NCBI GenBank assembly: GCA_017893485.1
Contig: CM030367.1
Location: 140,323,089 to 140,387,088, forward strand
Origin: Hemerocallis citrina
Taxonomy: Eukaryota; Streptophyta; Magnoliopsida; Asparagales; Asphodelaceae
Direction of reading: 5' to 3'
DNA length: 64,000 nt
Shown here: piece by piece, positions 32,445-61,011 of the stretch
Numbering within the stretch: position 1 is the first letter of the stretch
How the letters are laid out: every line of letters begins with the position of its first letter
Translations under genes and position numbers: made by a program
Notes under the pieces: model-generated
The model's database searches: none
Told to the model about the DNA's origin: nothing
The model's input: the letters and a program-made list of their open reading frames with translations, nothing else

Positions 32445-32552
32445 GGAGTTAACTTTTTTCTCTATTAATACTCTCTTAATTCAATCTAAAAAAATTCCGC
32501 ACCTTGTAAATCACCCTTGGGGGGGGGGGGGGGGGGGAGGGGGGGAGGGGGG
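32408..32552 (+). repeat. Two long G-tracts flanked by an inverted ATTCCGCA-TCACCC word
   Basis: Thirty-six G at 32408-32443 and 19 G followed by A-interrupted G-runs at 32519-32552. ATTCCGCACCTTGTAAATCACCC-like sequence before the second tract recurs inverted after it (GGGTGATCGTGCGGAAT). It looks like the U5 end of LTR L, in which C-runs on the - strand have expanded. Confidence 0.7.
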
Positions 32553-32884
32553 TGAATAGGGTGATCGTGCGGAATTAAAAAAATTAAAAGAATAAAGTAA
32601 AATAAATCAAAGTAATGCAAGAGAGGCAAGAAAAGCAAACTCAGATGACGCAGCAATATAACGTGGTTCGACCCCCAGGTCTACGTCCACACCACCTACT
32701 TGTAGCAATTCTCCTATACAAGCGTTCCACTATACTCAAAAACCCTTAGTACAGTGATTCTCGGATTCAGGCCAAGAGACCTATTACACCCACAGGACTT
32801 CTAATTCAAGTCCCGTCAATCTCACCAAAGTAGAAAAGAAAAGAAAAGAAAACTCAAGATCATTTGAGATCTTGACTAAAGGAT
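32450..32884 (-). mobile_element. 3' LTR of Sirevirus-like element L, left piece (boundary approximate)
   Basis: Continuous with 45141-45818 when element H and one TSD copy are removed. On the - strand it ends with CACCCTATTCACCCCCCT, a word typical of this LTR class. The exact terminus lies in the G-tracts and could not be placed. Confidence 0.5.
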
Positions 32885-33639: not shown

Positions 33640-33641
33640 GG

Positions 33642-40351: not shown

Positions 40352-40435
40352 GGTCGGCAAATACAACGAAGAAAAGAAAAAAGACAAAAACAGGGAGACA
40401 AGCAGCCTAGTTCCCCACCTCTGCGTCGGCTGGGT

Positions 40436-41443: not shown

Positions 41444-42659
41444 TAGACTCAGCCGGGCTCAGTCCGGTGCCGACCAGATGACCCTCCGTCACCCTCGGCC
41501 AGCTGATGCTGTGCCCCAGCCGCAGGCGCTCGACATATCTCCACTCCTCGGCAGACAGATCCTTCTGCCTTGGCGCTTTGAAGTTTGGCTTGAAAAAATT
41601 CCACCGGGTGGGGATGTCCCAAGGCTCGGAGCTCCGGATCACAAAGTATTTCCGCTTCCACTCCTTAATGGAGTCCGGATGACCATGGACTATCTTCCCC
41701 CGGCTCCGAGGGGAGATATAAAAAAACCCCTCGGACTCCCCCGACGAGCTGATCCCCAATATCGCGCGGAACACCTCCAACCAGAGCGGCACCTTCCTCT
41801 CCTCGCAGAGCAACACGAAGCATACCATCTGCTTCCAGGAGTTCGGTCCATACTGCATTGGGGCCAGAGACGCCCAATTGAGCACCTTCCAGATGAACGG
41901 GTGAATCGGCAGCCTCAGCCCGGAACCGAATGCGTCTATGGGGAAGATGCAGTACCATTCTGGTAGCAGGTTGATGGGACAGAGATCGGGGCTCGGCAAC
42001 ATCAGCTTGTAACCGGACCCAATGTGGAAGGCCGACTGAACCACCTCCAGATCACCTGCCTCCAGGATGGTCGGCAGCGCATCCATCCTCACCTTCTTCC
42101 GACTCGGCGAGGAAGGCTGCACCCCGTACAGCTCCTTGTCGGAGAGGTCGTCCGGATACCGTCTAATCGGCTTCGGCCGCAGTGGTGACCCTGTCACTAT
42201 GTTCCGAACAGGGGACGTCTCCCTCGGACGGCTGACCTTCGCCCCCTTCTGCCTTGGCATCTTCTTCTTCTTGGCCCTCTCCGACGAAGGGGTGGCCAGG
42301 GGTTCGAGGACGGCCACCGTTGAGGAGGAGCCTGCACCCCGATTCTGCCTCTGAGCAACGAATCTCCTCCCAGCACCCTTCCTCCGATCCTCAGCCGCTT
42401 CGGTCTCCCCGTTGCCCTCGCTGTCACTACTGCCCTCATCCGACACCGAATCCAATATCTGCACCTCATCCAAGCCATCACTACTGACCTCCTTCTCAGA
42501 GTCGCTGCTCTGCACCACGTACGGCTTCCGGACACGAAAGGGCTTCACATCATACACCCTTGTGTCCTTTGACCACGACGTCGAATCTGAGAGCCCTGCG
42601 CCAGGGTTGTCTTCCCCCCTCGAGGTCGAAGCTGACGAGCCAGACTGAGCCCTAGACAT
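41444..42659 (-). CDS. Antisense Transposase_28-type gene of H, exon 1 (open)
   Basis: ATG at 42659 opens 405 codons without a stop. The first 190 residues are Ser-, acid- and basic-rich and disordered. The second half matches the 'putative gypsy type transposon' family (Pfam Transposase_28 as I recall it): LRLPIHPFIWKVLNWASLAP, QYGPNSWKQMVCFVLLCEE, EWKRKYFVIRSSEPWDIPTRW. Function is unknown; such accessory ORFs accompany Tat-lineage elements, and maize Grande has an antisense one. A TATA box lies 160 bp upstream. The frame has survived better than pol in the same element. Confidence 0.8.
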
Positions 42660-42811
42660 GCTAACGGAATAAATCTAAAACTAACCTGTGTTGCCTCGGA
42701 AAAACGAGCCGGTGCTGCTAATTGAGAGGACGAGTGCCGAGGTACTTTTGTTTTTCTTTTAAGGAAGGCAGCGAGAGAGAGAGAGATGGAGGAAAACAGG
42801 AGGGGAGTGGG

Positions 42812-42819
42812 GGTATTTA
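42812..42819 (-). promoter_or_regulatory. Antisense TATA box of H
   Basis: TATAAATA on the - strand, 153-160 bp before the ATG at 42659. A second TATAAATA is at 43550-43557 on the same strand. J has TATAAAA at 51857-51863, about 166 bp before its ATG. Confidence 0.65.
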
Positions 42820-43742
42820 TAGAGGAAATGTTGACTCCTCGATTCTCGCGTTACTGTTCCTTGATTTGCGTGAGACAATTCCTTGGGGATCATGCCACTC
42901 CTCGATTTTCGCGTTACTATCCCGTGACGTCACCCGTTTGGGCGGTTGGCAACCCCTCGGTTCCCCGCTCAAATGCCGCCGGACTCAGGAGTCAGCCCGG
43001 ACAGAAGGCCTCGGCACCCTAGCACCACCACTTAAAGTTTTGTTTAAAGTTTTAAGGCACTTGCCTTGGACGAGCGCCCCGGGCTCCAGAACTTGGTCGG
43101 ATCCCCTCTCACCCGCGAGCAAATCGGGGCTTACGGCCTCAGAAGCTGAAACCCCGAATTGTTCGAGGGTGGGAGAGAATCCACCATCTCCTGGGACCCT
43201 ATCGGAAAATGGATCGACCCGCCTCCCATCACTGCCTCCTCCGGGCAGACAGCCCTCAGAAACCGTCGGCCCAGAAGGAAGACAGTGATGACAGAGGAGC
43301 CATCCATCCGAGGCTCCTTATCCCCCGGGCCCAGACCTCAGTCGATACCCCTCCCGTCCCGACCTCTCTTGGGCAAACAACCCCGTCAGGGCCGTCGACC
43401 CAAGAGAAGATCCGGACGGCAGAGTAACCACCAATCCGGGGCTCCCAGAGTTGAAGCTTTTTAAGTATCAGGCGTCCACCGAAGGCAGACACCTCTGAGG
43501 GTCGGTGGACCACTCCCGATGTGATCAAAATAGCAGTGGGGGCGTGGGGTATTTATAGCCTCCCCCAAGACCTACCATTATGGCCCCTGGGAAGCCAAGC
43601 AGCGGGAGCCCCAACCATCACGCCTGGGGAATTGAAGCGCTGCATTTATTAGGGGACATCATCAATGCCCCTGGGGAGTAGGAACGCCACACACACCCCG
43701 GAGCACCATTAGCAGTCTGCGAAATAGTGATCAGCTCAGGGC
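42820..43742. other. Spacer with likely antisense promoter of H
   Basis: No ORF supported. Contains GATTCTCGCGTTACT repeated at about 42840 and 42906, and the second - strand TATA. Upstream regulatory region by position. Confidence 0.5.
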
Positions 43743-44270
43743 AGCCTTCCCACAAAGGCACAACGGCTTGCCATCGTCCTTGCCGACCCGTAAACCCTCG
43801 TCAACCCGAGGTCAGGTCGAGCACCAGGGTAGCCTTCCCACGAAGGCACAACGGCTCGCCATCGTTCTTGCCGACCCGTAAACCCTCGTCAACCCGAGGT
43901 CAGGTCGAAAACCAGCTCAGCCTTCCCACGAAGGCACAACGGCCCGCCATCGTCCTTTCTGACCCGTAAACCCTCGTCAACCCGAGATCAGGTCGAGCAC
44001 CAGGGCAGCCTTCCCACAAAGGCACAATGGCTCGCCACCGTCCTTGCCGACCCGTAAACCATCGTCAACCTGAGGTCAGGTTAAGCACCAGGACAGCCTC
44101 CCCACGAAGGCACGACTTCTCGCTGTCGTCCTTGCCGACCCGTAAACCCTCGTCAACCCGAGGTCAGGCCGAGCACCAGGGCAGCCTTCCCACCAAGGTG
44201 CGATGGCTCGCCATCATCATTACCGACCCGTAAACCCTCGCCAGTCCGAGGTCAGGCCGAGCACCCCGGA
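43743..44270 (+). repeat. Tandem array of six 88-bp units near the 3' end of H
   Basis: AGCCTTCCCACxAAGGCAC starts at 43743, 43831, 43919, 44007, 44095 and 44183, exactly 88 bp apart (the fifth reads AGCCTCCC). Each unit contains GACCCGTAAACC and CGAGGTCAGG. Arrays at this place are known in Tat/Ogre elements and can seed satellites. Confidence 0.95.
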
Positions 44271-44369
44271 CTCGCCGTCCGCGCCGGCCCCAGGGGCCCC
44301 CGGGAAAACCCTCTCCCGTTTCTTCTCCATGACTAAACATACTCCTCCACGGCTAACTCGCACCCCCGC

Positions 44370-44385
44370 AGGAGTGGGGGGCTTG
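44370..44385 (+). other. Polypurine tract of H
   Basis: AGGAGTGGGGGGCTTG directly before the 3' LTR. J has GGGAGTGGGGGGCTCG on the - strand. Confidence 0.85.
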
Positions 44386-45135
44386 TGAGGTGGGATGAAA
44401 ATAACCCAAGGCCCAGCCAGGGCCCAGGATTGCGTCCACTCAAATAGCACGCCAACTCGGCACCGGACCGTCACAGGCTCGGAGCCGAGCTTATGAACTT
44501 GCCCCCACGAAACCAGTCGCCTCGTTCCAACGATCTGCCGCGACCTTCGGCCTCCGATCCTCGGCAGTCCCGTGGTCCCCCCATCAGCCTAGTGAGGGAT
44601 AAGGATGACCTGGCGCTACCCAGGCCATCCGATCCTCCCAGAGGCACAGGGGCCACACGATCCGCCACGTCAGCTTCAAAACCACTTGGAGCCTTGCCAC
44701 GTCAGCCCTAAACTGCCCCTGGTACTGCCACGTCTGCCTTAAACTCCCTGGGCCTCCTGCCACGTCAGGCCCATTGGCTTTCGGTTCCAGACCCGGTCCC
44801 CGAACGGATCCAAACCCGGTTGGGATTATCTATAAATACCAGGCCCTCTCCCACCTTTACAGGTAATCAATCTTTTACCACCTAAAAACCCTAGTTATTG
44901 CTACTCTCTCTCAGAGACTAACTAGATCGTCGGAGGGTCTGCCACCGGGATCAACCCCGGTGTTTCAAGACCGTCTGCAGGTATGCGAGGCGAGGCATCC
45001 CGATCCGAGCCGATCCTCAAGTGCCGAAGCGAGCCTCCCGCTCACCGTCCGGTACCGCATCCTTCCACCATTACAAATAGAGTCCGAACTCACACCTGGT
45101 GCACCCACACTCATCCCCAAAAACAAACAGCATCA
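44386..45135 (+). mobile_element. 3' LTR of H
   Basis: 750 bp, TGAGG to CATCA, about 97.7% identical to the 5' LTR by eye count. TATA at 44831-44838. Confidence 0.95.
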
Positions 45136-45140
45136 ACAAC
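45136..45140. repeat. TSD of element H, right copy (ACAAC)
   Basis: Matches 32885-32889. Confidence 0.95.
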
Positions 45141-45818
45141 CAATTTAACGCTCACACTCGGATTGATTATTAAGAGATTAGTTCAAAGTAATTTTCTCAG
45201 AACGAATAAGTGAAGAATACATAGTGGATTCGTTCGATTAAATAGAAGAGGAAGTTATCAATCAAAAGAAGAAACGATACATTCCAAAAAAGATATACAG
45301 CCAAGCTGCGGTCGACCGGTCAAAGTGTGCGGTCGACCGTTCAGCTCTCTGGCGTAGCTAGAGAGTTGAAAGGTCGACTGCTATCTTAATTCATATAGGT
45401 TGCAGTCGACTATGACGGTCGAGTGACATAAGGTACGGTCGACCGGTCGTTGGCTGTATAAATCGAATCCACTTTGTTTTCTAACCATAAACTCATCTCT
45501 CTTTAATCAATCAATTACAATAAATATCTCACGAAAATATTGCTAAAAATTCAGACTTGATAGATTGCTTGGAGGCCAATTAATTGAGAGCTCTTTCCTC
45601 TTTAGCATGTAGATGCAATCTCCCTTTATTTAATTGAGAGCGCTTTCCTTTTTAGCTTGTAGATGCAATCTTCCTTTATTACTTTCCTTGTTTGTATATT
45701 TGTGAATCTCTCTTGGATCTCTTTTTGATATTAATTAATCCTGAAAAACTGATACACTAAATTCAAACTTATTAGTACAGGTGAGCACATTTTGTGCACA
45801 CCAAACCAAGAGTCAACA
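45141..45818 (-). mobile_element. 3' LTR of Sirevirus-like element L, right piece
   Basis: On the - strand it starts TGTTGACTCTTGG at 45818, directly after a polypurine tract of AAAAAAGGGGGAGAT. It is interrupted by H at 45140. It contains five GTCGAC-type motifs at 45311-45443. A 60-bp word with AATTGAGAGC and GTAGATGCAATCT is repeated at about 45581 and 45643. Confidence 0.75.
45311..45446. repeat. GTCGACYG motif cluster 1 (LTR of L)
   Basis: GTCGACCG at 45311, 45332 and 45438, GTCGACTG at 45373, GTCGAC at 45405. The first two are 21 bp apart. Confidence 0.85.
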
Positions 45819-45833
45819 ATCTCCCCCTTTTTT
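45819..45833 (-). other. Polypurine tract of element L
   Basis: On the - strand AAAAAAGGGGGAGAT, directly followed by TGTTG. It is the form usual for Sirevirus (SIRE/Maximus) copia elements. Confidence 0.8.
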
Positions 45834-47022
45834 GTGTGAATAAAATATGCCAGGATGTTTGAAAGTTAAAACAAAGTATGTAAATATTCCCCCTAAATTT
45901 AGTGCATCCTGTAAAACAGATTTTCACATAGATAAAATTTTAAAGAGAGTGAATACTCCCCCTTAATATAATATTACCTGTAATACAGAGTTTAATGAAC
46001 AAATATAAGATAGGAATACCGAGTTAGAGAATTGATTCATGAAATGATTTGAAATTTGAAAATCGTTTGAAAACATTCGAAAACAATATTCTCCCCCTTT
46101 TTGGAACACACCATGAGGGGACAGATAGAGTAAAATAAAGCTTGGAAAGTTCGAAAAAACAACTATCAATTTAAAACAAAGAGGATGAACAATCTAAGAT
46201 ATAACACCAAATACAAAAAGGATCATGGATGAGAATCTTCTTACATGATACCATTGATAGCGAAACTCTTTGATATTCAGTGAGAGTTCTACATAATATC
46301 ATAGGTTTGAGATTCTCCCCAATACATATGAAAGTAACAAGAAAATCAAGAAATTAAGAGAAGAAGCATTGATTTTATGAAAAGTTTAAAGAACAAGACC
46401 AGAGAGAGTTGATCGACCTGATGGTCGACCGCAAAATATGATGTTGCAAAACAATATCCAGAGAGAATACCGGTCAACCACTGCTTGAGAGATATAAAAC
46501 TGAGTTGAAGGTAGAAGATTTCGATCTGCACAGGATAATTTGAGAGTTAAGAGTTAAATTTATAGTCATAAGGGAAGTTAGAAATGTGTAGATACACACC
46601 TGAAAAGAAAACTTAGAAACATGAGGAATTTGACATTTTTTAAAAAAAAATGGAAAGATAAGCTCAGAGGAGGAGCCAGTCGACTGCAACATCAAATTCA
46701 AGATTAGACCAGAGAGCAGAACGGTCGATTGCCAGGTCGACCGCAAAACTGAAACAGAACAGATACACTTGAGTGAAATCAATTTTATAAAGAAGTCAGA
46801 GTGTATGTTGGTCGACTGCTTGGTTGACCACAATACTAATACCAACAGATATATAAAAGTAACATTGATAATGCAATTTTGTTTGCCAATATGCATGAGG
46901 ATAAGAGCTTGAATTAAGATCAATGCAAGAGTTGAACTGCATTTCAAGATACGAGCTAAATTAAGTACCTTACAAGGAATTCAAATAGCATTCATAAGAA
47001 TATTTCATTAACAAATTACAAA
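45834..47022 (-). other. 3' internal non-coding region of L with extra polypurine tracts
   Basis: Further GGGGGA-type tracts on the - strand lie near 45887, 45957, 46091 and 46315. GTCGAC-type motifs occur at 46424, 46679, 46722, 46736 and 46811. No ORF is supported (45963-46169 and 46346-46947 have no family features). Confidence 0.6.
46424..46818. repeat. GTCGACYG motif cluster 2 (internal L)
   Basis: GTCGACCG at 46424 and 46736, GTCGACTG at 46679 and 46811, GTCGATTG at 46722, plus degenerate GGTCAACC near 46472 and GGTTGACC near 46823. Confidence 0.8.
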
Positions 47023-48138
47023 TTATTCATCATCATCTTCTTCTTCTTCTTCCTCATCCTCTTCTGCTATATTAGGAGGTGGGAGCCTTTCCCAATCCTC
47101 TTAGTCTTGCAAGTAATCAAGAGTCTTTGTGTAGTAATTGTACATTTGCATTTGAAGAGCGACAAATTGCTCATATGTCATGAATGAAGATGAGGAGGAG
47201 GAAGCCTGTGAGAGAGGGACTTGTGGTGCTTGTGGTGGTGCTTGGGGCTCTTGTTGTTCTTGTTCCTCTTGCCTTGCTTGCTATTGGGCTTGACGGCATC
47301 GAGCCCGTTGTCCGAAGGAAACATCAATGCCCATTTGTTGAGGGAGGATGGGCATAGGACTTTTGCTAAGTAGGTAATTCCCAACTTCAGCGCGGGAATA
47401 AATAGCGAGCTTGTATATGAGTGAGCTAAATGGGAGGCTGGCACAATATGAAGAGGTAGCATAATTCATCGTATAAATGATGAATGAGGCAAGATCGAAT
47501 TTTTATTCTCCAAGAACCAGAAAGATGATGAAGGATTGATCGACCCTAATTTCGGTTTTGTCATTCTTTTTGGGCCAAATATTTGCATTTACGATTTTAT
47601 TGAGCACACGGGCAGTGTCGGTAAACTGTGTAGGAGATGGGTGAGGAAGGTGAAAAAATTCATGTTGCACAATCATGGATTTTACAGTGTGTTGATTGTG
47701 ACCGGGCTTGTATTTAAAGGTTTTGAAGTCGAGGTGATAAGCGTCAAAATCCGCTTGGGGAAACTCGCATCGACCACGAAGATACTCGGGGGTGATTTTT
47801 ACTCTTCTCCCAAGTACGAGAGAAGAGAGAGTAAGATCACCATTTTGCAAGCCCTCAAGATTGGCATAGAATTGACGAGTTATTGATTTAGAGTGAGTAC
47901 TAGGGGTGCTATGATAGTTGTCCCAACCGAAACCCCTAAGAATTCTAACCATTACAGAGAATTGCCCCCCCCCCCCAAAGGCAGACAAGTCAATTGCCTT
48001 ATTGGCAACGACAGGAGCACTAGCAAGAGAAGAGAAATATTTATCAGCACATTGAGAATTTTGGAATACTATACCTTCTCTAGTGGTGAATTTTGATACA
48101 GTCCTCTTGCCCTTTGGTTGTTGAGAGGAGGAAGCCAT
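47023..48138 (-). pseudogene. Putative plant transposon protein gene of element L
   Basis: ATG at 48138 opens 371 codons to TAA at 47023-47025, with three in-frame stops: TAA 47503-47505, one in QAQ*QARQ near 47281, and one in LQD*EDW near 47103. It begins MASSSQQPKGKRTV and has RQFYANLEG, GRRVKITPEYL, ADFDAYHLDF, ARVLNKIVNANIWP, IIYTMNYATSSYCASLPF and a Gln-rich then Asp/Glu-rich tail. This order resembles the 'putative plant transposon protein' family (Pfam Transposase_32 as I recall it) that often accompanies copia elements. Its function is unknown. A run of 12 C at 47965-47976 encodes Gly residues. A TATA box lies 130 bp upstream. Confidence 0.65.
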
Positions 48139-48263
48139 GAGCCAAAGAGAGAATGTGTGAGAGATTTAAGGAAGGATTTGAACGAAAAAGAAAATTTTTA
48201 CTGATGGGTTTGGGGAGAGAAGGCTAGGGTTTAAGATGAAACAAGAGGTTGGGGGTAAAGAGC

Positions 48264-48271
48264 CTTTTATA
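48264..48271 (-). promoter_or_regulatory. TATA box before the plant transposon protein gene
   Basis: TATAAAAG on the - strand, 126-133 bp before ATG 48138, followed by a CT-rich leader with AAACCCTAG. It suggests a promoter inside the element separate from the LTR. Confidence 0.6.
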
Positions 48272-48311
48272 ATAGAGAGAGAGAGAGAGGCAGACTTATT
48301 CGTCTAAGTCG

Positions 48312-48475
48312 GTCGACCGATTTAATAAACGTTCGACCGCACCATACATTAAAAACACAGTAGGCAGGGTCAGAGGGTGGGACGGTCGACCGCACAGTCG
48401 ACCGGTTAATTCTCGCAAGCAGTTGATTATAAATACATACGGTCGACCGGTCAGTCGATCGGTCGGTCGACCGGT
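48312..48475. repeat. GTCGACCG motif cluster 3 (upstream of the TATA box in L)
   Basis: GTCGACCG at 48312, 48384, 48397, 48442 and 48466, GTTCGACCG at 48331, GTCGATCGG at 48453. Spacings of 11-13 and about 20 bp dominate. Confidence 0.85.
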
Positions 48476-48654
48476 TATTCAATTTTTGCAGTTATGATTT
48501 CATGAAACCATATTTAATGTAAATTCAAGCAGGTATAGATCCTACAGTGCATAATTGAAGAACAACGTCCTTCACCTATTTCCTTGATAGAGATGCAGAT
48601 TATTGCTGTGCCAGTTGAGATTTGTGCATCTTCTATCAAGGTTTCTGCATGTCT
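48476..48654. other. Short degenerate stretch between gag remnant and cluster 3
   Basis: No motif recognised. The absence of protease, integrase and reverse transcriptase between gag and the 3' gene shows that pol of L is missing here. Confidence 0.5.
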
Positions 48655-49127
48655 TTACGTTGAATACTTCGAACTCCCTACCTGTATGTTTGTAGGAGTC
48701 CATGTGAGCTTTGAGCCTGCATCAACATTCTTTCTTACCCACACAAGATTAGTCTTCCTTTTTAGTGAGCAGTTATAAGAGATATGTCCTAGTCTACAAC
48801 AAAAATTGCATGTGATTCGATTGTGTCTTGGGTCATGCGCACTTGCATAATTTATATTTGGTTTGTGATTGTGTTGATTTTTATGCACGTGCATATGACA
48901 GAATAATTTTTGGTGATGTATTGGTTCTTCGTAACTAAGCCCTCTATTATCATGAAATGATCTTAAATTTTTTGTAATAATGTAACTGGACCCTTCATGC
49001 TTTTCAATAATTTTTTCAAGCTCAGTTACCTTTTTACAAAGCCTCTTTCTAGTTATCTCATCATCTTTTGTATTCCAACGAACAGTATCTGGTGTGGCAT
49101 CAAGAATCCTATTTTGTTTAAGGGCTT
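48655..49127 (-). pseudogene. gag C-terminal part of copia element L
   Basis: On the - strand, after the J insertion, the frame reads LKQNRILDATPDTVRWN, KKVTELEKIIEKHEG and a CCHC knuckle CNFCCRLGHISYNC near 48770-48811. It joins the fragment at 60725-61011 through the GGCTT target duplication. No stop is present until 48655. This is a Sirevirus-type gag with coiled coils before the knuckle. Confidence 0.75.
49123..49127. repeat. TSD of element J, left copy (GGCTT)
   Basis: GGCTT directly before 49128 and again at 60720-60724. Confidence 0.92.
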
Positions 49128-49691
49128 TGTTACCGCTAAATCTGGTGTGGGGACAAACAGATAGAATTTGTGGATTCATTGAGATGTCGAATAGTCAAAC
49201 CTGAAAACCTTTCCGCCGGAGTTTGACCGTTATCTCCCTCCGTTGACCTGCAAAAAGTGCGAAACAACGTGGTTGATCCCAGCGACGCACCCTCCGACGC
49301 TCAAGTCAGTAATCAGAAAGATTATGAATGAGCTTTGATTGGCAAAAGATTGATTACCTGTTAACAGTGGGGGATGGGGGGTATTTATAGCCGCCTTAGG
49401 GACCATTTTCGGGATAAATCCCTACTTCCTAGTGGATGGATCTAAGGAATTAGGGTCGTTGATTAAGTATAATCATAAACCCTAATTCTATCCAGCTGGA
49501 CTGGGTTCTTTTCGGGTTCGAACCCGCACCCAGTTAAGGTGGATCCGTTCGTGGGCTATTGGGTCTTTGGAGAAAAGACCCAGTATCCATTTCAAACCCG
49601 TCTGTAGGTGAAATTACCATTTTACCCCCGAGCTTTAAGATTCGTGCCCAATTTGGACGGTTCCTATTTAACCCTATTTTTAGCCATATCA
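49128..49691 (-). mobile_element. 3' LTR of J
   Basis: On the - strand it runs TGATATGGC to GCGGTAACA. Matches 60157-60719, and more distantly the M LTR at 61012-61631. Confidence 0.93.
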
Positions 49692-49707
49692 CGAGCCCCC
49701 CACTCCC
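49692..49707 (-). other. Polypurine tract of J
   Basis: GGGAGTGGGGGGCTCG on the - strand, directly before TGATATGGC. Almost identical to the H tract. Confidence 0.85.
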
Positions 49708-50166
49708 GAAGACTGAGTTTGATCAGCTTTTGAGGAGTAGTTTTATTGTTTTAATGGCTTGCGGAGTTGTATCGGAGTCCAAATGGGGGTGTCGAATCTT
49801 TGTATGAGGTATTATGGTGAATTTTGGAGCTAGTTGCGTGCTCAAGGTTGTTCCTGAGCTCTCCTGGACTTTTGGTGGTTTTTCTTAATTTTAATCTATT
49901 TTTCGGACCATTTATTTAATTTTGCGAAGCGGTGATTCATTGTTCGGGGGACTTAATTAATTATTCTAAGCAATAATTATTAACCCAGGGGTTCAAAAAA
50001 TTTTCCCCGAATTCGTAATTATTTTTTGGAATTTTTAATTAATTTTTCTGAATTTTTAATCATTTTTTCGCAAATTTTAAATGAATAATTCGAATTTAAT
50101 AAATAAAAAATTAATTTTTATTCTGATTTATGACGTGGCACGATTTGGGCCTTCCATCAGCCAGCG
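49708..50166. other. AT-rich non-coding part of the J 3' region
   Basis: No gene recognised. It lies between the PPT and the tandem array. Confidence 0.5.
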
Positions 50167-51690
50167 ATGCGAATTTCTAGAGGATCAGATGGCCGGAGTA
50201 GCTCGGCGGCGTTTTTCTCCGCTTGCGGAAGTCGGTGCCCCGGTAGCTCGGCCAGTCCTCCTCGGCAGCTCGGTAGCTCGGTGCGTTACGAGCTGCCGAG
50301 CTACGTGGTAAGCTCTGGAGGATCCATCATGGTGCGAATCACGAGGATGGGGGTTCAGATCACGAGAAAATGCTATCTTGTCGTTTTGTGGGCGTGGCGT
50401 GATCTGAACCGCTCATCATGTTCCAGCGTGATTTTTGAAACGTTCCAATGGTTGGGGTAGTTCGGCAGTCATTTTTCTTCAAATGTGAGGGTCAGTGCGT
50501 TGGCTATAGCTGCTCGGTTGCTCGGCAGCTCGGGCTTAACTCCTTGGTAGCCTGGTAGCTCGGCTACAGTTGCTCAGTATATCGGCAGCTCGGCCTTTCT
50601 TCCGTGATTGCTCGGTAGCTTGGCCTTAGCTGTTCGGTAGCTCGACAGAGTGCCCCGGTGGCTCGGCAGCTCGGGACGATCTGTTGAGCCACGTAGCAGG
50701 ATCCGGTGCGTTGATCACAGCGCAGATCACGAAGTTGGAGGTTCAGATCACGAGAAAATATTATCTTGTCATTTTGTGGGCGTGGCGTGATCTAAGCTGC
50801 TCATCATGTTTTGACACGAATTTTGAGACAATTTGACGGTAGGAGTGGCTCAGCGGCATTTTTCTCCAAATGTGGAGGTCGGTGCCTCGGTAGCTTGGCA
50901 GAGTGTCTCGGTGGCTCGGCTCGGTATGGCCCGTTGAGCCACGTGGCTGGATCCGGAGCATTCATCACGGTGCGGATAACGAGGTTGGAGGTTCAGATCA
51001 CGAGAAAACGTTATCTTGTCGTTTTGTGGGCGCAGCGTGATCTGAGCCGCTCATCATGTTTTGACACGAATTTTGAGACAATCTGACGGTAGGAGTGGCT
51101 CGGCGGCATTTTTCTCCAAATGTGGAGGTCGGTGCCCCGATAGCTCGGCAGAGTGGCTCGGTGGCTCGGCTCGGTATGGCCCGCTGAGCCACGTGGCTGG
51201 ATCCGGAGCGTTCATCTTGGTACGGATCACGAGGTTGGAGGTTTAGATCATGAGAAAACATTATCTTATCGTTTTGTGTTGGCGTGATCTGAGCCGCTCA
51301 TCATGTTTCGACACGAATTTTTAGACAATCTGACGGTAGGAGTGGCTCGGCGACATTTTTCTCCAAATGTGGAGGTCGGTGCCCTAGTAGCTCGGCAGAG
51401 TGTCTCGGTGGCTCGGCTCGGTATGGCCCGTTGAGCCACGTGGCTGGATCTGGAGCATTCATCATGGCGCAGATCACGAGGTTGGAGGTTCAGATCACGA
51501 GAAAACATTATCTTGTCATTTTGTGGGCGTGGCGTGATCTGAGCCGCTCATCATGTTTCGACACAAATTTTGAGACAATCTGACGGTAGGAGTGGCTCGG
51601 CGGCATTTTTCTCCAAATGTGGAGGTCGGTGCCCCGGTAGCTCGGCAGAGTGTCTCGGTGGCTCGGTGCTCTACGAGTTACCGAACTGCC
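50167..51690 (+). repeat. Tandem array of about six units of 247-250 bp in J
   Basis: GACACGAA-type unit markers lie at 50813, 51063, 51310 and 51560 (spacing 250, 247, 250). Two diverged units precede them, the second expanded by a GTAGCTCGGCAG subrepeat at about 50510-50680. Units contain CACGTGGCTGGATC and GATCACGAG. The several short ORFs on both strands are repeat translations. Confidence 0.9.
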
Positions 51691-51856
51691 ATGCAAAGTG
51701 AACCGTTGCAACTTTTCTCGAATCGTCACAGCTTCCTCTATTCTGTCATTTAGTCTTCCTTAATGGGCCCCCAAGCGTTATAGAAGCCCAACAGTCGCCT
51801 CTTTGTCTATAAGTTCCTACCCCCCTCGCCCCTTACCTCATTCTTTCACTTTTCAC

Positions 51857-51863
51857 TATAAAA
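51857..51863 (+). promoter_or_regulatory. Antisense-gene TATA box of J
   Basis: TATAAAA, 166 bp before the ATG at 52023, followed by a CT-rich leader. A weaker TATAAG is near 51806. Position and spacing match H. Confidence 0.65.
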
Positions 51864-52022
51864 TTTTACTTTCGCTCTCGAGTCGCTCTGCTAGCGGAGA
51901 TTTGAGCTCAAGGGCGGTTGTGCTAGCTGTTGCGAAGGCCAGGCGATTTCCGGCAAACTTTTTCTGACCGTGAACGTCACATCAAGGTCAGTTTACTTAA
52001 CCTCAGATATTTATTCTACGAG

Positions 52023-52980
52023 ATGTCACGGGTATCCTCGGGTAGTGAGGCATCCTCCTCAGGGGGTCGGAGCACCGAGGAAGGGAGAGAAGTGGTGAGC
52101 AGAAGGAAGGGGAAGAAGATAGTAGGGTCGTATGCGGCCGAGGAGAAGGGGAAGGAAGTGGTTTGGTCCTCGGTTGTTGAGACGATTGTAGAGGACGTGA
52201 GACAGGCGGGTGAGCTGGGTCGGATGCCGACCGTGTTGTCCGGCCATGGGGGGATAAGGCAGTACAGCGGCGAGCTGCTGACCAAAGCTGTCTACGGTCT
52301 TGCGGAAACCTACGAGGAGAACGATCCGAGGGAGGTTACCGAGGTGGACGATATCCCCTCGATTCTAACCGAGCGAGACTTACTCCCGACTCGGAAAGGC
52401 TTCGCCATTCCCTCGGAGTACACATTAATCCTCCCCGGCCCCGGGGTGCGAGCGAACACAGCTTTTTCGGCAGATACCTGCATCTTCGCCTACGACGCAT
52501 TGAATGCCGGCCTGCGCTTCCCCTTCCATCCTTTTGTGACTGTGGTTCTCCGGTGGTACGGGCTGTGTCCTATTCAGTTCATGCCAAACACGTGGCGCCA
52601 TGTGCTCGGGTTTCTGCTTTAGTGTCGAACGGCAAAGGTGGAGCTGCAGCTCGTCATCCTCTGGAGTTTGTACCGGATCAACAGAATGAGGTAAGCTCGA
52701 GCCGCGCTACTATCTTTAGCCTCGGAAAGGCGTCAAGCTGATAGAAAACCCCGACTCGATAAAGTCGTGGAAGGGGAAATTCAATCTGATCAAGGGCCCC
52801 TCGGCGTGGGACTTCCCAACTCGGTGGAAGGAGGACGTGCCGAAGTATGCAAAGTCCGAGCCGGTGTTGACCACGGCCGAGGCGGAGGTGGCCGCAAAGC
52901 TGATGGTCTTCCGATGTTGAGTTAGAGGGAAATGACCGAGGAGGTGCTGCACGGGTCAGGCCTCAGTCCGATCGACCCGA
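52023..52980 (+). pseudogene. Antisense Transposase_28-type gene of J, exon 1
   Basis: The ATG at 52023 opens MSRVSSGSEASSSGG. The conserved domain has LRFPFHPFVTVVLRWYGLCP, FMPNTWRHVLGFLL, then after a TAG at 52620-52622 CRTAKVELQLV. A frameshift near 52690 and a TAG near 52712 follow, then ENPDSIKSWKGKFNLIKGPS, AWDFPTRWKEDVPKYAKSEP, and a second frameshift near 52917 restores the frame to MTEEVLHGSGLSPIDP. Net frame is unchanged. The protein is the counterpart of the H gene on 41444-42659 and lies antisense to the J gag. The start was chosen by comparison with H. Confidence 0.8.
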
Positions 52981-53071
52981 GTACGCTCCAGACATCTCTC
53001 TTTTCTTTTCAGTTTACTATTCTTCAATGCCTTGTGTTTTTTTCTAACCTGATTTTGTTTTGCTCCGGCAG
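52981..53071 (+). other. Intron 1 of the antisense gene of J (91 bp, phase 1)
   Basis: Donor GTACGCTCC after GLSPIDP and acceptor GCTCCGGCAG. Splicing gives PKAPNMDFKAMM in frame. Same phase and place as in H. Confidence 0.75.
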
Positions 53072-53523
53072 AGGCTCCGAACATGGACTTCAAGGCGATG
53101 ATGGCCGAGCGAAACGAGGTCGCGGATGCCAAGAAGAGGAATAGGACAAGCGCAGGTCCCTCGTCTGGTCGACCCACCAAGGCTCCTTCTACCGTGGTCA
53201 GAACGGTCAACCTCACTTCTCCTCGACAATCGACCCCGGCTGCCGTTGTTCCTCAGCCGGCCCTGTCCGAGGGCTTCTTTGTCTCGGTGGCTCTGGCGCT
53301 TCAGGCCCCGCCTCTAACTTAGCAGGTCGAGGTCATACTGATCGAGGCCCACAAGAAGCTGTTTGTCCCCGATTGGCGAGTGAAGAACCATGACGGCTTC
53401 TTGGGGGACTCGGGGATGAGCATGCAGGCTGTTCGGCACCTTCCGAACCCGAAGGATCGAGCCGCGCTGAAGGCGGGGACGACGGGCAACAATGCTCTTG
53501 AAGTAGCTTGGTCGCTTATATCA
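53072..53523 (+). pseudogene. Antisense gene of J, exon 2
   Basis: Encodes APNMDFKAMMAERNEVADAKK, a Pro/Ser/Thr-rich stretch, a TAG at 53320-53322 (CAG expected), then KKLFVPDWRVKNHDGFLG and EVAWSLIS. The middle part has no equivalent in H exon 2, which is also low-complexity. Confidence 0.7.
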
Positions 53524-53616
53524 GTAAGTCTTCTTTGCCGTTTATCGAAATTTTCTTGAAAATTTTCTAAGTCTTTAGCTCGGCTTTTGTCGCGTTCTAA
53601 CTATTTCTTTGTGCAG
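53524..53616 (+). other. Intron 2 of the antisense gene of J (93 bp, phase 0)
   Basis: Donor GTAAGT after WSLIS and acceptor TTTGTGCAG. Same phase and place as H intron 2; both donors are GTAAGT. Confidence 0.75.
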
Positions 53617-54258
53617 GCCACTTGTCATTTCAGCCACCTTCTCGAGGAATATGCCAAGCAAGAGAGGGAGCTAGGGCCATGAAGTAGTTGGAGGCGGAGC
53701 AAGAGAGGGAGCTAGGGAGTTAGTGACAAAGACAGAGCAGAAAGGGCGAGAGCCGTGAAGTAGTTGGAGGCGGAGCAGCGCCGCTCGGACGCTTTGGCGG
53801 CCCAAGTTGCCGACCTTGAAGCGGCTCTGGAGCAAGCGAGGGAGAAGCTCGCTTCGAAGGTCACTAAGGCAGCCGAGGAGATGGCTGAAGCGGTGAGGGC
53901 TTTGGAGGCAGTGAAGCTGCAACAAGCCAAGGCCGTGGAGAAGGTGAGGGCGGAGATTGAGGCTGAGGCCAAGAAGCACATGGCGGCCAACATGGAGAAG
54001 TCTTACGCCACCGCGCTCGAGCACGTCAAGGCTCGATTCCTCGAATTCGACAGGTCGGGGTATGGGCTGTGGGGCCCGGTCGCCGAGCCTGATGCCGAGG
54101 AAGAAGCTGAAGGAGAGGAGGAAGAAGACGAAGGAGAAGCTGATAGAGAGGAGGGGGACGAGCAAGACGGTGGTGGTGCTCCTGCCGACCCCGAGACCAT
54201 GGTGGTGGAGGGAGACGGTGACCAGGTCGTGGCTGACCACCGAGCCGGAGCGGCGTAG
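53617..54258 (+). pseudogene. Antisense gene of J, exon 3 (coiled coil)
   Basis: ATCHFSHLLEEYAKQERELG starts the exon. A duplicated GAGAGGGAGCTAGGG segment at about 53660-53720 introduces stops, then QRRSDALAAQVADLEAALEQ runs as a long coiled coil to HVKARFLEFDRSG, followed by a Glu-rich tail and TAG at 54256-54258. Confidence 0.65.
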
Positions 54259-54568
54259 GACGAGGGGCTGTCTACCGAGGAGCCCGTTCCCGAGCTACCG
54301 TTCAAGATGGCCCCTTGATCCTCTTGCTCTTGTACACACTTTTTTTTATGTACTGCCTTGTAGCGGACTGGCCACCGCTTTTTCTTTTGATATAAATGAA
54401 ACTTGTTTTTGGCAATCCTTGCTAAGTGTTGGAGTGTTTCGATTTGAGATCTTTCTGGAATTTGACTAAGTGTCGAGTACTCCCTTTTGACGATTAGTCA
54501 AGTGTTAGCAAGTTTGGCTTTGAAGTTTAGGTGTGTTGCACGAGCTCAGTGTTGATGTATTTTTTCAG
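54259..54568 (+). other. Region between J antisense exon 3 and the second coiled-coil unit
   Basis: Holds the conserved GCGGACTGGCCACC at 54363-54376 and T-rich sequence ending in TTTTTTCAG, a splice acceptor. It is either an intron or a 3' UTR plus leader. Confidence 0.5.
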
Positions 54569-55414
54569 GGGGTGCCGCACCACGAAGCTACAGCCGAGGC
54601 TGCTCGTCTCCGAGCTGACTTGAAGACGACGAAGTTGGCCCTCGCCCGCAGCCGAAAGTGTTTTCTCAAAAGCGAGTTGGAGCTGGAGCATCTCAAAGCG
54701 ACGCTGGGAGAAGGCCTCTCCAAGTCGAAACAACCACGGGAACGAACTCGCGAGGTTCGTCTTAAAGGCGAGGTGGAATTGCTCCGAAAGGCGCTGTTCG
54801 ACGTCGAGAAAGAGAAAGGCGAACTACTGGTGTTGGTGCACCACCTAAAGATTGCAAAAGAAGAACTTTCGACGGAGGAAGATGAATTAACTACAGCAGT
54901 GGGCTAGTTGATGGTCGAGCGCGACCAGTTGACGGTGGAGATTGACACGTTAAAGAGGGTTACAGTCGACAAGAGTATCAAAGTCACCCATCTTCGTCGA
55001 ATTATCGCCGACAGTTCTGGTGACGCATGCCCTGCTTGGCTTCCTCGCTTCAAGATAGCCATGAAAGATGACTCTTTGATGGGTCGAATCGTCGAGCTCG
55101 ATGAGGAAGTTGCTCGAATCAAACCCCAACCCGTGCGGCCTAATGTCAGAAGTACATCGTGTACTCGTGAAGAGAGCAAGAGGGGAATCTCTTTTTATGA
55201 GCTTGCGACCCGCTCTCCTGCTGTTAGGCAGAGCCCGGTTGATGCTCATAGTGGTGTGGCCGCTTCGTCGATCGAAGCATCCGTTGGAGCCACCGTCAAA
55301 GGAAGTGCTAAAAAGGCATCTCAGTTTGCTGGTCTGGAGACGAGCTCCGAGGTCAGGCATTGCCGTCCCCGGGTGTCTCTAAACCGAAACGTCCCTATCC
55401 CGAAGAAGCGTTGA
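54569..55414 (+). pseudogene. Second antisense coiled-coil unit of J
   Basis: Frame GVPHHEATAEAARLRADLKT runs to TAG 54905-54907 and continues in the same frame from VERDQLTVEIDTLKRV to NRNVPIPKKR and a stop at 55412-55414. The heptads and charged residues make a coiled coil over the first 180 residues; the tail is basic and Ser-rich. It is the counterpart of 39660-40210 in H by position (after the conserved 14-nt block and an acceptor), but sequence similarity is weak. No family recognised. Confidence 0.5.
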
Positions 55415-55705
55415 ATGAGTTGTTGTAATTATGTCTCTTCGAGTTTTTGTAATTCCTCGTAGTAGGGTAGCTTGGTCTTGTAACTTAAGTTTTCTTGAAC
55501 TTTCTAACCTTTATAAAAGTGAAGGCCTGTGTTACTCTCTTGCACTTGTGGGCTTGCGTATTTTGTTAGTACTTGTCGTTTGTTTGGTACTACTTGTTAT
55601 TTGCTTAAGAGCAAGGAGTAGAAGCGAAGCCTTGAGTGAGTTTTAACGGTTGTGGGAGCAATTCCGAATGGCGAACCACTTCTAGCTCGCTTACGAGCGA
55701 GTTTG
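55415..55705 (+). other. 3' flank of the J antisense cluster
   Basis: T-rich, no ORF, likely 3' UTR. A small CTCGCTTACGAGCGAG palindrome lies at about 55686-55701, next to the end of LTR G. Confidence 0.5.
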
Positions 55706-56384
55706 TGAAGCGGAATCATACCAAATTTTGGAATCAGACCAAGCTCGCTTAAGAAATATGTGGCACAATTCCCAGCATCAACTTCAAATGTAATACTAAA
55801 CAAAGTCGAACACCAATAAAAATTTTCAACTTTCATTACATTAATCTTTACATAGCACAGCGGAATACAATACACCTTAAATTACAAATTTCTTTTACAA
55901 CAATACATAACCCATTATACCACTTTAACTCATGCATCCAAAATCTAAGCTACAAGTAATCACAAGTAAAATCACGAGGCTAGAGATAACCCTAACCCCC
56001 AAAACCAAAGGGGTCAGCCATAAAGGTGTGAGTGACATAAAACAAGAACAAGCAACATAAATAAACATGAAACATGAAATCATAAACTACATGTAATAAA
56101 GACAAGAATAAATGAATTAAAAAATAATAATGGAACATGAAAACATCAAGTGTAGCTAGACTAAGTGTCAAGTGTAGGAAAACAAGGACAACACATGCAT
56201 AAAACCAAGCCAAGAAAACACAATTCTATATGCTGACTCTCTAATGCGTACTTGTCGGAGTCTATGCATCCCACTCTACATAGGTCAGGTGCAAGCCCTT
56301 AACGTCTCCACATTATAGGGTTTAATCCCCCGCTATGCAACTAAGCCTACTACGACGACTACTACGAGATAAAGATAAACTGTG

Positions 56385-56640
56385 AGTATTAGCCCATGCC
56401 CCGATAATTCTGGAGGTCAATCTCTATCCACAGATAATTCCGGAGACTATTTCACTCACACCTGGGAATCTTCGAGAATACCCCACACCGCAAGCGATGG
56501 TACCTCATCACACGAGTACCACATGTGCGTCGCCTCGACCCCGATAATTCTAGAGATCAATCCCACACCACAGGTAATTCCGGAGACTATTTCACTTACA
56601 TCTGGATAATTTCGGGGATTATCTCACACCGCAAGCCATA
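56385..56640. repeat. Repeats of CCGATAATTC in LTR G
   Basis: Units with CCCCGATAATTCTGGAG or AGATAATTCCGGAGAC recur at about 56400, 56440, 56540 and 56575. A related, sense-oriented set lies in F at about 26915-27110. Confidence 0.65.
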
Positions 56641-57020
56641 CTGAGGTCCATAACCCATGTTCTCGTTCATCATATCACCACTAGTGCCTGTCCTTATCAT
56701 TTAGGTTATTTAATTACTTTACGAATCTCCTAAAGTTGGTGTACCCTACCAGACTTAACTCAACAACTGATCAACTAAAATTGCCTCAACAGGCCCAAAC
56801 ATAAATATCTCAACTGTCGGTATACTAGGGTCACACACACCCTCTAGAGATTCACACCCAATATCCAAACTAATCTTCCAATATAAATTGCTCAGTTAAA
56901 TCACTTGAAAACTTATGTTCGGTAGCAGATAAAGGAGAGAATAGTAGGTTATAGATTAAAAAATTTAGAGAATAAATCATTTAAAAGAACATTCAAAGAT
57001 ATAAAGATACATCAGTATTA

Positions 57021-57374
57021 GTCGACTATGGACAAGCATAGGTCGACTGTCCAGAGAGAAAAATCCATTAACTTTAAGAAAATAATTCTAAGTATTTTAA
57101 GTCGACTGTAAAAGGTCATCGGTCGACTGTCCAGAAAGAAAATCCAATATTCTTAAGAAAATAATTCTAAGTATAGTAGTCGACTGTAAAAAGTCATAGG
57201 TCGACTGCCCAGAAAGAAAATCCAATAATCTTTTAAGAAATAATTCTAAGTGGTGCCAGTCGACTGAAAAAATCACCAGTCGACTGTCCAGAACGACATT
57301 TCAAGAAAATCTAGAGAACACAGCAGGCAGGTCACGTCGGTCGATTGTGGAGTCACACCGGTCGACTGTCGACC
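57021..57374. repeat. GTCGACTG paired array, about 79-bp period, in LTR G
   Basis: Motifs start at 57021 and 57042, 57101 and 57122, 57179 and 57200, 57259 and 57279, 57339 and 57361, with one more at 57369. Within-pair spacing is 20-22 bp and pair-to-pair spacing is 78-80 bp. Linkers contain CCAGAAAGAAAATCCA and AATAATTCTAAGT. Confidence 0.95.
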
Positions 57375-58990
57375 TACAGACTGCAAACTTTTGGTTGTGC
57401 ACATTTCAACCGATACGTAGTTTTACTTTATGAAAATGATTTCTACAAAAAGTATATTTCTTATGTGATCAATTACAACCTGTAGGATATATAAGGATTC
57501 ATAAAAAACTAATCAAAAACCACTTGAATTGATAAAATAACTTTTTTGATGAACTTCTTCAAAATAAAAACAGGAACGTGTGCATATATCAAAATTAGAG
57601 TTTTTAAGAATAAATCATACATCAAAATAACTTTATTTTATATTCCAAACATATCAATACCAAAATAAGTTGAGATATAGTCAAATCCTTCGAAACACAT
57701 AAAACTCTATTTCTTCTAAAACAACAAAAATACTATATTCATGAAAACGTTCGTGCATGTTCGTGCACCAAAGAAAAATTCACCAATCCATAAACTAAAA
57801 TAACAAAATATTTAAATATCAAACTTAGTATTTAAGTAAATCCAAATTCAAATGAAATCTTTCACAAAATCACAAATCCCCAAATTTAATTAAAAAAAAT
57901 GTATCAATCCCAAATTTTAGTCATCACAACTCAAATCCTCGAGACATGGTCTTTTAATCCATTACTCATTCTCAAAATTCCTCGAACTCAAACTCGACTA
58001 TTCTCAATAGTTGATCCATAAGCAAATTTATCATTTACATGGCCAAGTTGCATTCATCCAACTCACTAATAGTCCAAAAATCTCTTCTTTAATCAATTAA
58101 TGCATAACATCCATCATACTCAATCAAATCAGCAATAAATTCAAAAGAAATAGCCTACTCAAAATTTATATTAGGTTCTCCTACAATCCAAAATCATCCA
58201 CTTGCAATTCTACTCACAACAACTAGGGTTCTTTTCAAAGATCCAATTTTATCATCCATCCAACATACATATTCAAACCAAACCCTAGCATGCTTTCTAA
58301 TAGATGAAACACCACATACCACATACATAAAACAAAACAACAAAATAATTTACATCACTCACCTCGATGGAGAGATCAAACGAATGTAACAAAGCAAGAT
58401 GAAGAATCCCTCCTTTGCAAAGAATCCAAGATCCCCTCTTTAAATCTCCAAGAAAATAAAAATAATAAACCATGTGTTGTGCAGTGAAAGACGGCTGCAC
58501 TCCACCTTTTAAATAGGCCGGAATTAGAAGAATTAGGGTTTTGAACTCATTTGCAAAATAATCCTTTTAAAATATATCTTTACATAAATAGATCCCTATA
58601 CTTAGAAACTTGATAAAACCAATTTAATTGAGATTTAAAACACAAAAATAACCATCCTAAGTCAGCCAGCACTGTTTGAAAAGTCCAGAAAACAGTTTTG
58701 CACTTTCACCCCTCAAAATGACAATTTTGCAAAAAGATCCTTCTTTTTGTAATATTTGCAAATAAGTTTAATAAATATCAGAAAAATCTAGAAAAATTAT
58801 AAATAATCTCAAATAATAAATAATGATTTTCCACAAAATGATTTTGCCTTTTTAACTTCCCAAGAAAATATTTGCACGTGTTTTGCACGTGTAAATATAA
58901 ATTTTCAGAAAATATTTACTAAATCCCCAAAAATTATTTTAATTCATTTATAAATCTTTAAAATAATATTTAAAAATATGGGGTACTACA

Positions 58991-60086
58991 ATTCTCGGGC
59001 CGGACCCTTGAGAGTAGCTGGGAAGATTTTGCACAGTAGAGCATCGGAAGCTTGGTGGATCAACATCTGGGTCTTGAAGCTCTCGATGTGGTCCACGGGG
59101 TCTGACTCCCCAGAGTAAGTCTCAAACTGCAGGGGCTTGAAGCCTATTGGAATGGGCGCCTCCATGATTGTTCGAGAGAAGGGAGGTCGGCTTGGACAGA
59201 GGGTCCTTCCTCTCAGCTCTTCTTCTCTATCCAGTTGGCCGAGGCGCCACTCTATCTCGTGGAGACGGCGGTAGACCGCATCGTCCCTTTGATGGTAGCC
59301 AAGCGAGTCTCTGGACTCTTCTTTGTAAGAAGGGGAGCGCGGAGTTCGGCGATGGTGGCTAGGAGAATGATGAGAACTGGTGATGTGATGGTGGTAGCTC
59401 GGAGCTTGTAGAGGAGTTAGGGACCGATGGCGAGGACTTTGGACCGGAGGAAGAGTGGGGACCCTTTGCGCATTGCTGTTGTTGTTTGGTCGGAGGTTGA
59501 GGGCTTGCAAGATTATGGCTTGGAATTGTTGGAATTCGGCTCGGGTGATAGGCCCGTTTTCGTCCCTCGGGGGCTACCGACCAGCGGGAGAGTGATGCCT
59601 TCTTCGATGGTTCTCAGGGGACTCTCTCCGCCTTCTGTGAGAAGGGGACCGCTTGTGGTCGTGGTGATGAGGAGATCGCTCATTTGGACGTTTTGAGCTG
59701 GTGGCCCCCTCACGGGCCCGCCTTTCATCCAAACGGCGGTGAAGGTCCTCTTCTTTCTACCGGTTGATGAGGATGTTGCGGAGATCTTCGGAATGCTGGG
59801 GGTTGTGAGATACCATTGAGTCGGTTGAAAGGTTATGTATGGAGATGTGGTCACGGTGAAGGGGTTGTTTCTGAGGATTAGGACGAGAGGTCCCTACACC
59901 GGCATTCTGGGGCCTGAGTGGAACCCACTGGGATTAAAGAGGAGGTTGCTCCTGCTGTAGGGCCTGATCAGGCTGAGGAGGGAGTTGCCCTTGCTGCTAG
60001 ACGGTTTGGAGGGGGACCTCCTATTGTGGCTGAGGAGGAGTGGGCCCACGGTTGGACCCTCTAGATCTTAGTTTTCTTGGAGGCAT
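58991..60086 (-). pseudogene. gag of J, 3'-truncated by LTR G
   Basis: ATG at 60084-60086 (- strand) starts PPRKLRSRGSNRG, as in M. An Arg/His/Ser-Pro-rich domain follows, then TRAEFQQFQ, FKPLQFETYSGESDPVDHIE and FPATLKGPARE, where the frame is cut. Stops occur near 60020, 59990, 59760 and 59570. The product is the N-terminal and first gag part only. Confidence 0.85.
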
Positions 60087-60136
60087 GGTTGGAGGTGATC
60101 TTAACCGATGGAAGAGAATGGGGTGCTATTCGTGGT

Positions 60137-60156
60137 TCCCACAGACGGCACCAATC
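60137..60156 (-). other. Primer binding site of J
   Basis: On the - strand GATTGGTGCCGTCTGTGGGA, right after the 5' LTR end GCAGTAACA. Shared with H and M. Confidence 0.75.
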
Positions 60157-60719
60157 TGTTACTGCTAAATCTGGTGTGGGGCAAACAGATAGAATTTGTG
60201 GATTCTTTGGGATGTCGAATAGTCAAACTTGAAAACCTTTCCACCGGAGTTTGACCGTTATCTCCCGCCATTGACCTGCAAAAAGTGCGAAACACTGAGG
60301 TTGATCCCGGCGACGCACCCTCCGACGCTCAAGTCAGTAATCAGAAAGATTATGAATGAGCTTTGATTGGAAACAGATTGATTACCTGTTAACAGTGGGG
60401 GATGGGGGGTATTTATAGCCGCCTTAGGGACCAGTTTCAGGATAAATCTCTACTTCCCAGTGGATGGATCTAAGGAATTAGGGCCATTGATTAAGTATAA
60501 TCATAAACCCTAACTCTATCCAACTGGATTGGGTTCTTTTCGGGTTCGAACCCGCACCCAGTTAAGGCAGATCCGTTCGTGGGCTATTGGGTCTTTGGAG
60601 AAAAGACCCAGTATCTATTTCAAACCCGTCTGTAGGTGAAATTACCATTATACCCCCGAGCTTTAAGATTCGTGCCCAATTTGGACGGTTCCGATTTAAC
60701 CCTATTTTTAACCATATCA
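60157..60719 (-). mobile_element. 5' LTR of J
   Basis: 563 bp, pairs with 49128-49691. TATAAATA on the - strand at 60410-60417. Confidence 0.93.
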
Positions 60720-60724
60720 GGCTT
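60720..60724. repeat. TSD of element J, right copy (GGCTT)
   Basis: Matches 49123-49127. Confidence 0.92.
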
Positions 60725-61011
60725 CGTTACAACCTTCCACTACTTCATCAAAATTTCTTTTACATTCATCTAAGTCTTTTGTGAGCTTGGCAATATAGAC
60801 TGACTTCTCTTGAATCTCTCTTAAGTAATCATCATGTTTTGCTAGAAATTCACAAATTTGTTGTTTCAAGGTTTCATTTTCATCTAGCAAAACATCATAA
60901 TCTTTTTGACATGAATCAAGTTTTTCCAAAATCAGAGCATTCTTATTTTTCAGTTTGTGATTCTTTGTTATGCACTCGTCATGTATTTCATTTGAATTCT
61001 ATTTATATTGC
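60725..61011 (-). pseudogene. gag middle part of copia element L
   Basis: On the - strand MEKLDSCQKDYDVLLDENE opens a clear coiled coil (YIAKLTKDLDECKRN). It is open to the J insertion and continues at 49127 with LKQNRIL. Upstream gag is cut off by M at 61012. Confidence 0.75.

Follow-up and report, generated by a model that had tools for sequence, protein, structure and literature searches.

The closest described counterparts of the array analyzed here are the repeated-motif (RM) boxes of Sireviruses, CpG-rich palindromes of the CGG-CCG type that occur in many copies and sit in the LTR shortly before the TATA box as well as upstream of env (Bousios et al. 2010; PMC2829016). The Vitis Sirevirus box reads CGGTCGACCG, and the accessible part of the same paper calls RM boxes Sirevirus specific as opposed to classic Ty1/copia elements and leaves their regulatory role to experiment (PMC2829016). 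Other marks of these elements are multiple AGGGGGAG polypurine tracts (PPTs), an AT/TG junction, and an inverted repeat bordering the PPT (PMC2829016). Maize Sireviruses carry palindromes of the form CACCGGAC...GTCCGGTG in Opie and PREM-2 (PMC2829016), and the maize motif has also been reported in regions annotated as Helitrons (PMC10760457). On Sirevirus palindromes and gypsy LTR arrays, PMC2829016 was the only relevant paper among those listed by our literature search. A GTCGAC or GGTCGACC core in a Ty3/gypsy LTR was not found in the literature searched, a weak absence in that few subscription papers were covered.

GTCGAC boxes in the window and the paired array of LTR G

We analyzed a 64-kb window, meaning the whole stretch of DNA, in which the original prediction had placed clusters of a GTCGAC motif in a gypsy LTR (G) and in a copia element (L). 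GTCGACYG matched 36 times on both strands of the 64 kb; 100 dinucleotide shuffles gave a mean of 1.87 and at most 6 matches, and none reached 36. L (45136-49127) holds 23 of these matches, LTR G holds 12, and one lies elsewhere (54963), so that 35 of 36 are confined to two elements. LTR G contains 10 copies of the core GTCGAC and L contains 14, against first-order Markov means of 0.21 and 0.30 (largest 2 in both cases, 300 runs each). The remaining 56.8 kb has 11 copies, which is inside the null range (mean, 6.7; largest, 15; 60 runs), and is therefore background. The predicted clusters in G and L are thus real, and the anticipated excess over shuffled controls was borne out within the window. 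We scanned eight further LTR regions for boxes with up to two mismatches, namely C1, C2, B, the two LTRs of each of two Tat-type elements, and a single LTR region of a third, and found none; outside L and G, the rest of the window has 12 boxes of this kind, all imperfect.

The features of G and its relatives are as follows.

55759..58990 (approximate), minus strand: LTR G, a Ty3/gypsy-type long LTR, solo or truncated, placed by LTR similarity
57019..57376, minus strand: GTCGACTG-type boxes in five pairs, spaced 20-21 bp within a pair and recurring every 78-81 bp
56995..57003, minus strand: TATA-like sequence TATATCTTT, 15 bp past the final 10-bp box in G
about 23.8-27.8 kb: LTR B, related to G
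1886-2994 and 10805-11959: LTRs C1 and C2, flanking an element (C) with Ty3-type gag, protease, RT, and RNase H

LTR G is about 3.2 kb long, starts with TGTAGTACCCC at 58990, is nested in a Tat-type element (49128-60719) and, by reading, is about 40 bp shorter than its sister LTR at the low-coordinate end. It matches LTR B at 72% over 716 bp, C1 at 79% over 119 bp, and C2 at 78% over 93 bp. A pol is absent from G itself, whose link to a Ty3-type pol is the LTR similarity to C1 and C2; through this relatedness to the LTRs of a Ty3-type element, G is probably a Ty3/gypsy-type LTR. Among the best 120 of 7,999 matches, the RNase H of element C hit Ty3/gypsy proteins, the named ones mostly from plants, with the best at 63 to 67% over part of the query. 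A CACGTG box pair is common to LTR G (58875-58891, about 100 bp inside the start) and LTR B (23944-23960).

The pairs in G start at 57021, 57101, 57179, 57259, and 57340 (periods of 80, 78, 80, and 81 bp), with within-pair spacings of 21, 21, 21, 20, and 21 bp, which confirms the five regularly spaced pairs that had been described. The motif had been given as GTCGACTG throughout; of the 10 paired sites, 8 match it exactly, but 57021 reads GTCGACTA and 57340 reads GTCGATTG. An overlapping 11th core is found at 57368. Three of the 11 sites begin with CGG, none ends with CCG, and none reads CGGTCGACCG, and the array lacks the CGG-CCG palindromic box of Sirevirus RM. The boxes mostly end with CTG and begin with CGG, CAG, AGG, AAG, or TAG, and the central CpG is retained at all 11 sites. 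Tandem Repeats Finder (TRF) describes the array as 3.3 copies of a 79-bp unit. The pairs form one tandem array, so the repeated 21-bp spacing does not represent five independent events; tandem amplification alone accounts for most of the regularity, and the five pairs are one family.

The boxes are more conserved than the linkers between them. Box columns agree at 98.4% versus 78.5% elsewhere across four units and at 97.5% versus 70.6% across five, a difference reached by none of 20,000 column permutations, in a test that assumes independent columns on copies that are few and related. Among 52 shifts, the true box register came first, sharing that rank with the -1 shift for four units and holding it alone for five. 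Most of the linker similarity is gone from the fifth unit, which has kept both boxes (with one C-to-T change) and the 21-bp spacing. We take this apparent constraint on the boxes as evidence rather than proof. The CpG observed/expected ratio is 1.17 in the array versus 0.62 across the remainder of the LTR, an excess that is partly built in because each box contains a CpG; with the boxes removed, the array also stands at 0.62 (5 CpG in 292 bp). The TATATC in the TATA-like site is a weak TATA match, and the next TATA[AT][AT] past the array is 134 bp on.

We also scanned IMG/VR. The spaced-pair pattern gave 11 loci. In 9 of them, a 29-bp match (39 to 40% G+C) places its two cores 21 bp from each other, with no cluster around it. 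One of the 11, L001, reads like the beginning of a coding frame, and going by this locus we took the 11 as probable phage genes. Three perfect boxes in succession were found nowhere in IMG/VR, GGTCGACTGTCCAG was found at 84 loci (80 among the matches listed), and GGTCGACCGNNNGGTCGACYG was found at 6. The densest of 101 loci had at most 6 GTCGAC per 400 bp versus 10 in G; the L clusters, with 4 or 5 each, do not stand out from IMG/VR by 400-bp density. A gypsy RNase H search of IMG/VR returned no relative.

The Sirevirus-like architecture of element L

The features of L are as follows.

45141..45818, minus strand: first part of the Sirevirus-type 3' LTR, starting with TGTTGACTC
32500..32884 (low end approximate), minus strand: probable rest of the 3' LTR, with a C-rich run, placed by context
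45309..45445, minus strand: LTR cluster of six boxes, three of them perfect CGGTCGACCG
45289..45297, minus strand: TATA-like sequence TATATCTTT, 11 bp past the final 10-bp box in the LTR cluster
45817..46098, minus strand: three AGGGGGAG polypurine tracts (45821, 45956, 46091)
46410..46830, minus strand: cluster lying after the env-position ORF and before the polypurine tracts, eight degenerate boxes, none perfect
47503..48138, minus strand: env-position ORF, Pfam PF20167 at 44.5 bits, just under the curated cut-off of 45
48310..48473, minus strand: cluster upstream of the env-position ORF, seven boxes, four of them perfect CGGTCGACCG
48655..49127, minus strand: gag-like zinc-knuckle region, recognized by reading

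The clusters in L lie where they had been predicted. L had been described as a Ty1/copia element unrelated to G, and it is indeed of another class; however, L itself appears, from its layout, to be a Sirevirus-like element on the minus strand, and its box is the published RM box. The halves of its LTR, about 1.07 kb (~1,070 bp) as the sum of two pieces, are split by a Tat/Retand-type insertion with the target site duplication (TSD) ACAAC at 32885-32889 and 45136-45140. Beyond this insertion, a C-run at about 32519-32552, assigned to the LTR by context, resembles the C-rich integrase signal of Sireviruses. The LTR boxes lie 374 to 510 bp into the LTR and are followed by TATATC, at 522 of about 1,070 bp.

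The terminal PPT of L stands 10 bp before the 3' LTR and forms a AGGGGGAG-AT/TG junction (AGGGGGAGATTG at 45817-45828, minus strand), and three PPT copies precede the LTR, as in Sireviruses. It is also bordered, in the Sirevirus manner, by an inverted repeat in which 16 of 21 bases match and the second arm lies 12 bp inside the LTR; a repeat as good arose in 2 of 2,000 shuffles. The CGG-CCG boxes stand before the mid-LTR TATA (TATATC, a weak match) and before env, again as in Sireviruses. The Sirevirus primer-binding site TATCAGAGC had no match in the 64-kb window, where the 5' LTR of L was not located. No pol was recognized by eye among ORFs of at least 45 amino acids in L, so L may be a deletion or nonautonomous derivative. 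A protein search with the env-position ORF gave 195 candidates, none of which scored; the search with the gag piece gave 3 candidates and no homologue, and Pfam recognized no gag domain in that piece. A second gag-like piece at 60717-60998 is split off by a Tat-type element (TSD GGCTT).

Counting boxes with up to three mismatches, the neighbor spacings of 10 to 25 bp in L are 21, 13, 20, 12, 12, 12, 20, 12, 12, and 12 bp. These 10 spacings take only the values 12, 13, 20, or 21, with six at exactly 12, and a single commonest spacing was seen at least six times in 0.02% of 20,000 random placements. The 2-bp linkers of the 12-bp pairs differ, and these pairs may descend from one another by duplication. 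The CpG observed/expected ratio is 1.36 in the LTR cluster and 0.72 in the post-env cluster; the LTR stretch beside the LTR cluster, at 1.58, exceeds the cluster itself.

Several other repeats surround these elements. The element that splits the L LTR (32890-45135) was typed as Tat/Retand by its gag, RT, and antisense Transposase_28 ORF (41436-42674); it has 750-bp LTRs that are 98% identical, a perfect ACAAC TSD, and an 88-bp tandem array (43737-44265). The second Tat-type element (49128-60719), within the gag-like region of L, has 95% identical LTRs and the TSD GGCTT. Its antisense Transposase_28 ORF spans 51927-52622, its 250-bp tandem array spans 50635-51666, and an element related to it lies head to head from about 61011. 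An inverted repeat of about 580 bp (17042-17596 and 22078-22654; 93% identical) flanks about 4.5 kb and has TA runs.

Possible roles and origins of the G array

We consider it probable that the G array is a cis-regulatory cluster upstream of a promoter, which acts like the Sirevirus RM boxes through a dimeric host factor. The palindromic 8- to 10-bp sites would be bound in pairs by a putative dimeric host transcription factor, and the bound sites would activate a putative LTR core promoter just downstream, for which we infer that the TATA-like TATATCTTT is used. L bears the same core in the classic Sirevirus places and would be read in the same way. This reading is drawn from a single copy of G and a single copy of L. 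The array for a dimeric factor that had been proposed across retroelement classes holds in that two unrelated classes carry the boxes in promoter-like positions, with boxes conserved above linkers in G, although the L half was already known. The presumed reader of CGG-CCG half sites could be a LOB-domain factor, a candidate on which our literature search gave nothing relevant.

Could the array instead be an ordinary minisatellite, whose unit came to contain two GTCGACTG by chance and whose match to L is coincidental? The 79-bp TRF array is what tandem duplication would leave, the sister LTRs are without the box, and linker homology between G and L is not demonstrable. Only 64 palindromic hexamers exist, and we estimate the chance of sharing one among a handful of LTR families at a few percent. 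However, box columns far above the linkers in conservation, and a fifth unit diverged nearly everywhere save in its boxes and their spacing, argue against chance duplication, which we regard as rather unlikely. A further alternative is that the array acts through nucleic acid structure or silencing, either as hairpin RNA feeding small RNAs or as a CpG-dense chromatin signal, a role proposed for the maize Sirevirus palindromes in the accessible literature, where small RNAs are reported in excess over them. RNA folding of the arrays beats shuffles (z of -3.4 for G, -7.1 for the L LTR, and -3.7 for the L pre-env cluster); yet repeated palindromes fold by construction, so these z scores do not separate the readings. 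The G palindromes are short, and the host may have come to silence sites that are retained for some other purpose; we judge this role improbable.

The original prediction also allowed that G acquired its array from an element such as L, and the linkers of G and L were aligned with this in view. The same core and the 20- to 21-bp pairs occur in both; the ends CTG and CAG in G are what CGGTCGACCG, with its CGG-CCG signature, would become after the transitions expected of CpG decay; and a linker stretch beside the boxes (AACACAGCAGGCA-GGTCA versus AACACAGTAGGCAGGGTCA) gave a P value of 0.013 with the boxes masked. Against this, the other two masked comparisons gave 0.78 and 0.43, and with boxes fixed and linkers shuffled, no match exceeded chance in any of the three L clusters (0.43, 0.32, and 0.15). 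We regard gain by recombination with a Sirevirus as very improbable, and the proposed acquisition from L is not supported. Motif identity between G and L is by itself weak evidence, given that palindromic hexamers are few and several LTR families share the window. The shared 20- to 21-bp pairs and the position of TATATCTTT, which occurs only four times on both strands of the window and follows the last box of G or L in two of the four, add to it, although both coincidences were noticed after the fact. Most likely, G and L converged on the same factor, or exchange was too old for linker homology to survive. In the window, CCAGAGAG adjoins boxes at five of its six places (45345, 46399, 46458, 46709, and 57051), a sequence chosen after the fact.

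Returning to regulation by a host factor, a broader version is that a Sirevirus-type box is used across superfamilies, such that a gypsy LTR and a Sirevirus recruit the same dimeric factor and related gypsy LTRs use other palindromes; we offer this only tentatively. None of the G-related LTRs C1, C2, and B has the GTCGAC box, and two of the three bear other palindromes. LTR B carries GAACAGTAACC/GGTTACTGTTC (TGAACAGTAACC-CGA-GGTTACTGTTCA at 25889-25915, then partial copies as far as 25959), LTR C2 repeats CGATGCATCG (TCACGATGCRTCGTGA at 11175 and 11304; region 11175-11319), and C1 has no comparable palindrome pair. If the broader version is true, LTR control arrays would be renewed by exchanging one host factor for another, and two retroelement superfamilies would be coregulated.

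Comparison with described box systems

The presence of one core in a Sirevirus-like element and in a Ty3/gypsy-type LTR would make a putative binding factor easier to find, as it offers two independent baits. If the constraint on the boxes is real, a single host protein would be able to switch on retrotransposons that are unrelated to each other. Tnt1-type LTRs have activator boxes, which are short symmetric repeats with a proposed role in the control of LTR transcription. These resemble the G boxes in being symmetric repeats, but their sequence is different and they belong to a Ty1/copia family. Box I of Tnt1 is named in PMC2829016. The accessible text of that paper also matches much of L: the perfect L boxes are identical to the Vitis Sirevirus RM box, and the layout, with LTR boxes followed by a TATA-like sequence and further boxes before the env-position ORF, is the published one (PMC2829016). 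L differs in its eight degenerate boxes after the env-position ORF, whereas 77 of 79 linker boxes are reported before env, and in having three PPTs, with four as the Sirevirus average (PMC2829016). The occurrence of the maize motif in Helitron-annotated regions sets a precedent for such palindromes outside Copia elements (PMC10760457). The G-related LTRs with palindromes of their own recall Sireviruses, in which elements reportedly have their own boxes. Maize Sireviruses, like G and L, carry palindromic arrays in the LTR regulatory region, but the core differs. G departs from the Sirevirus RM system as a Ty3/gypsy-type LTR rather than a Sirevirus, with boxes in tandem pairs and an incomplete CGG-CCG signature (PMC2829016). 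The L half of our observation, a Sirevirus RM box, is therefore already known, and what is new, to a modest degree, is that a Ty3/gypsy-type LTR has this core as well.
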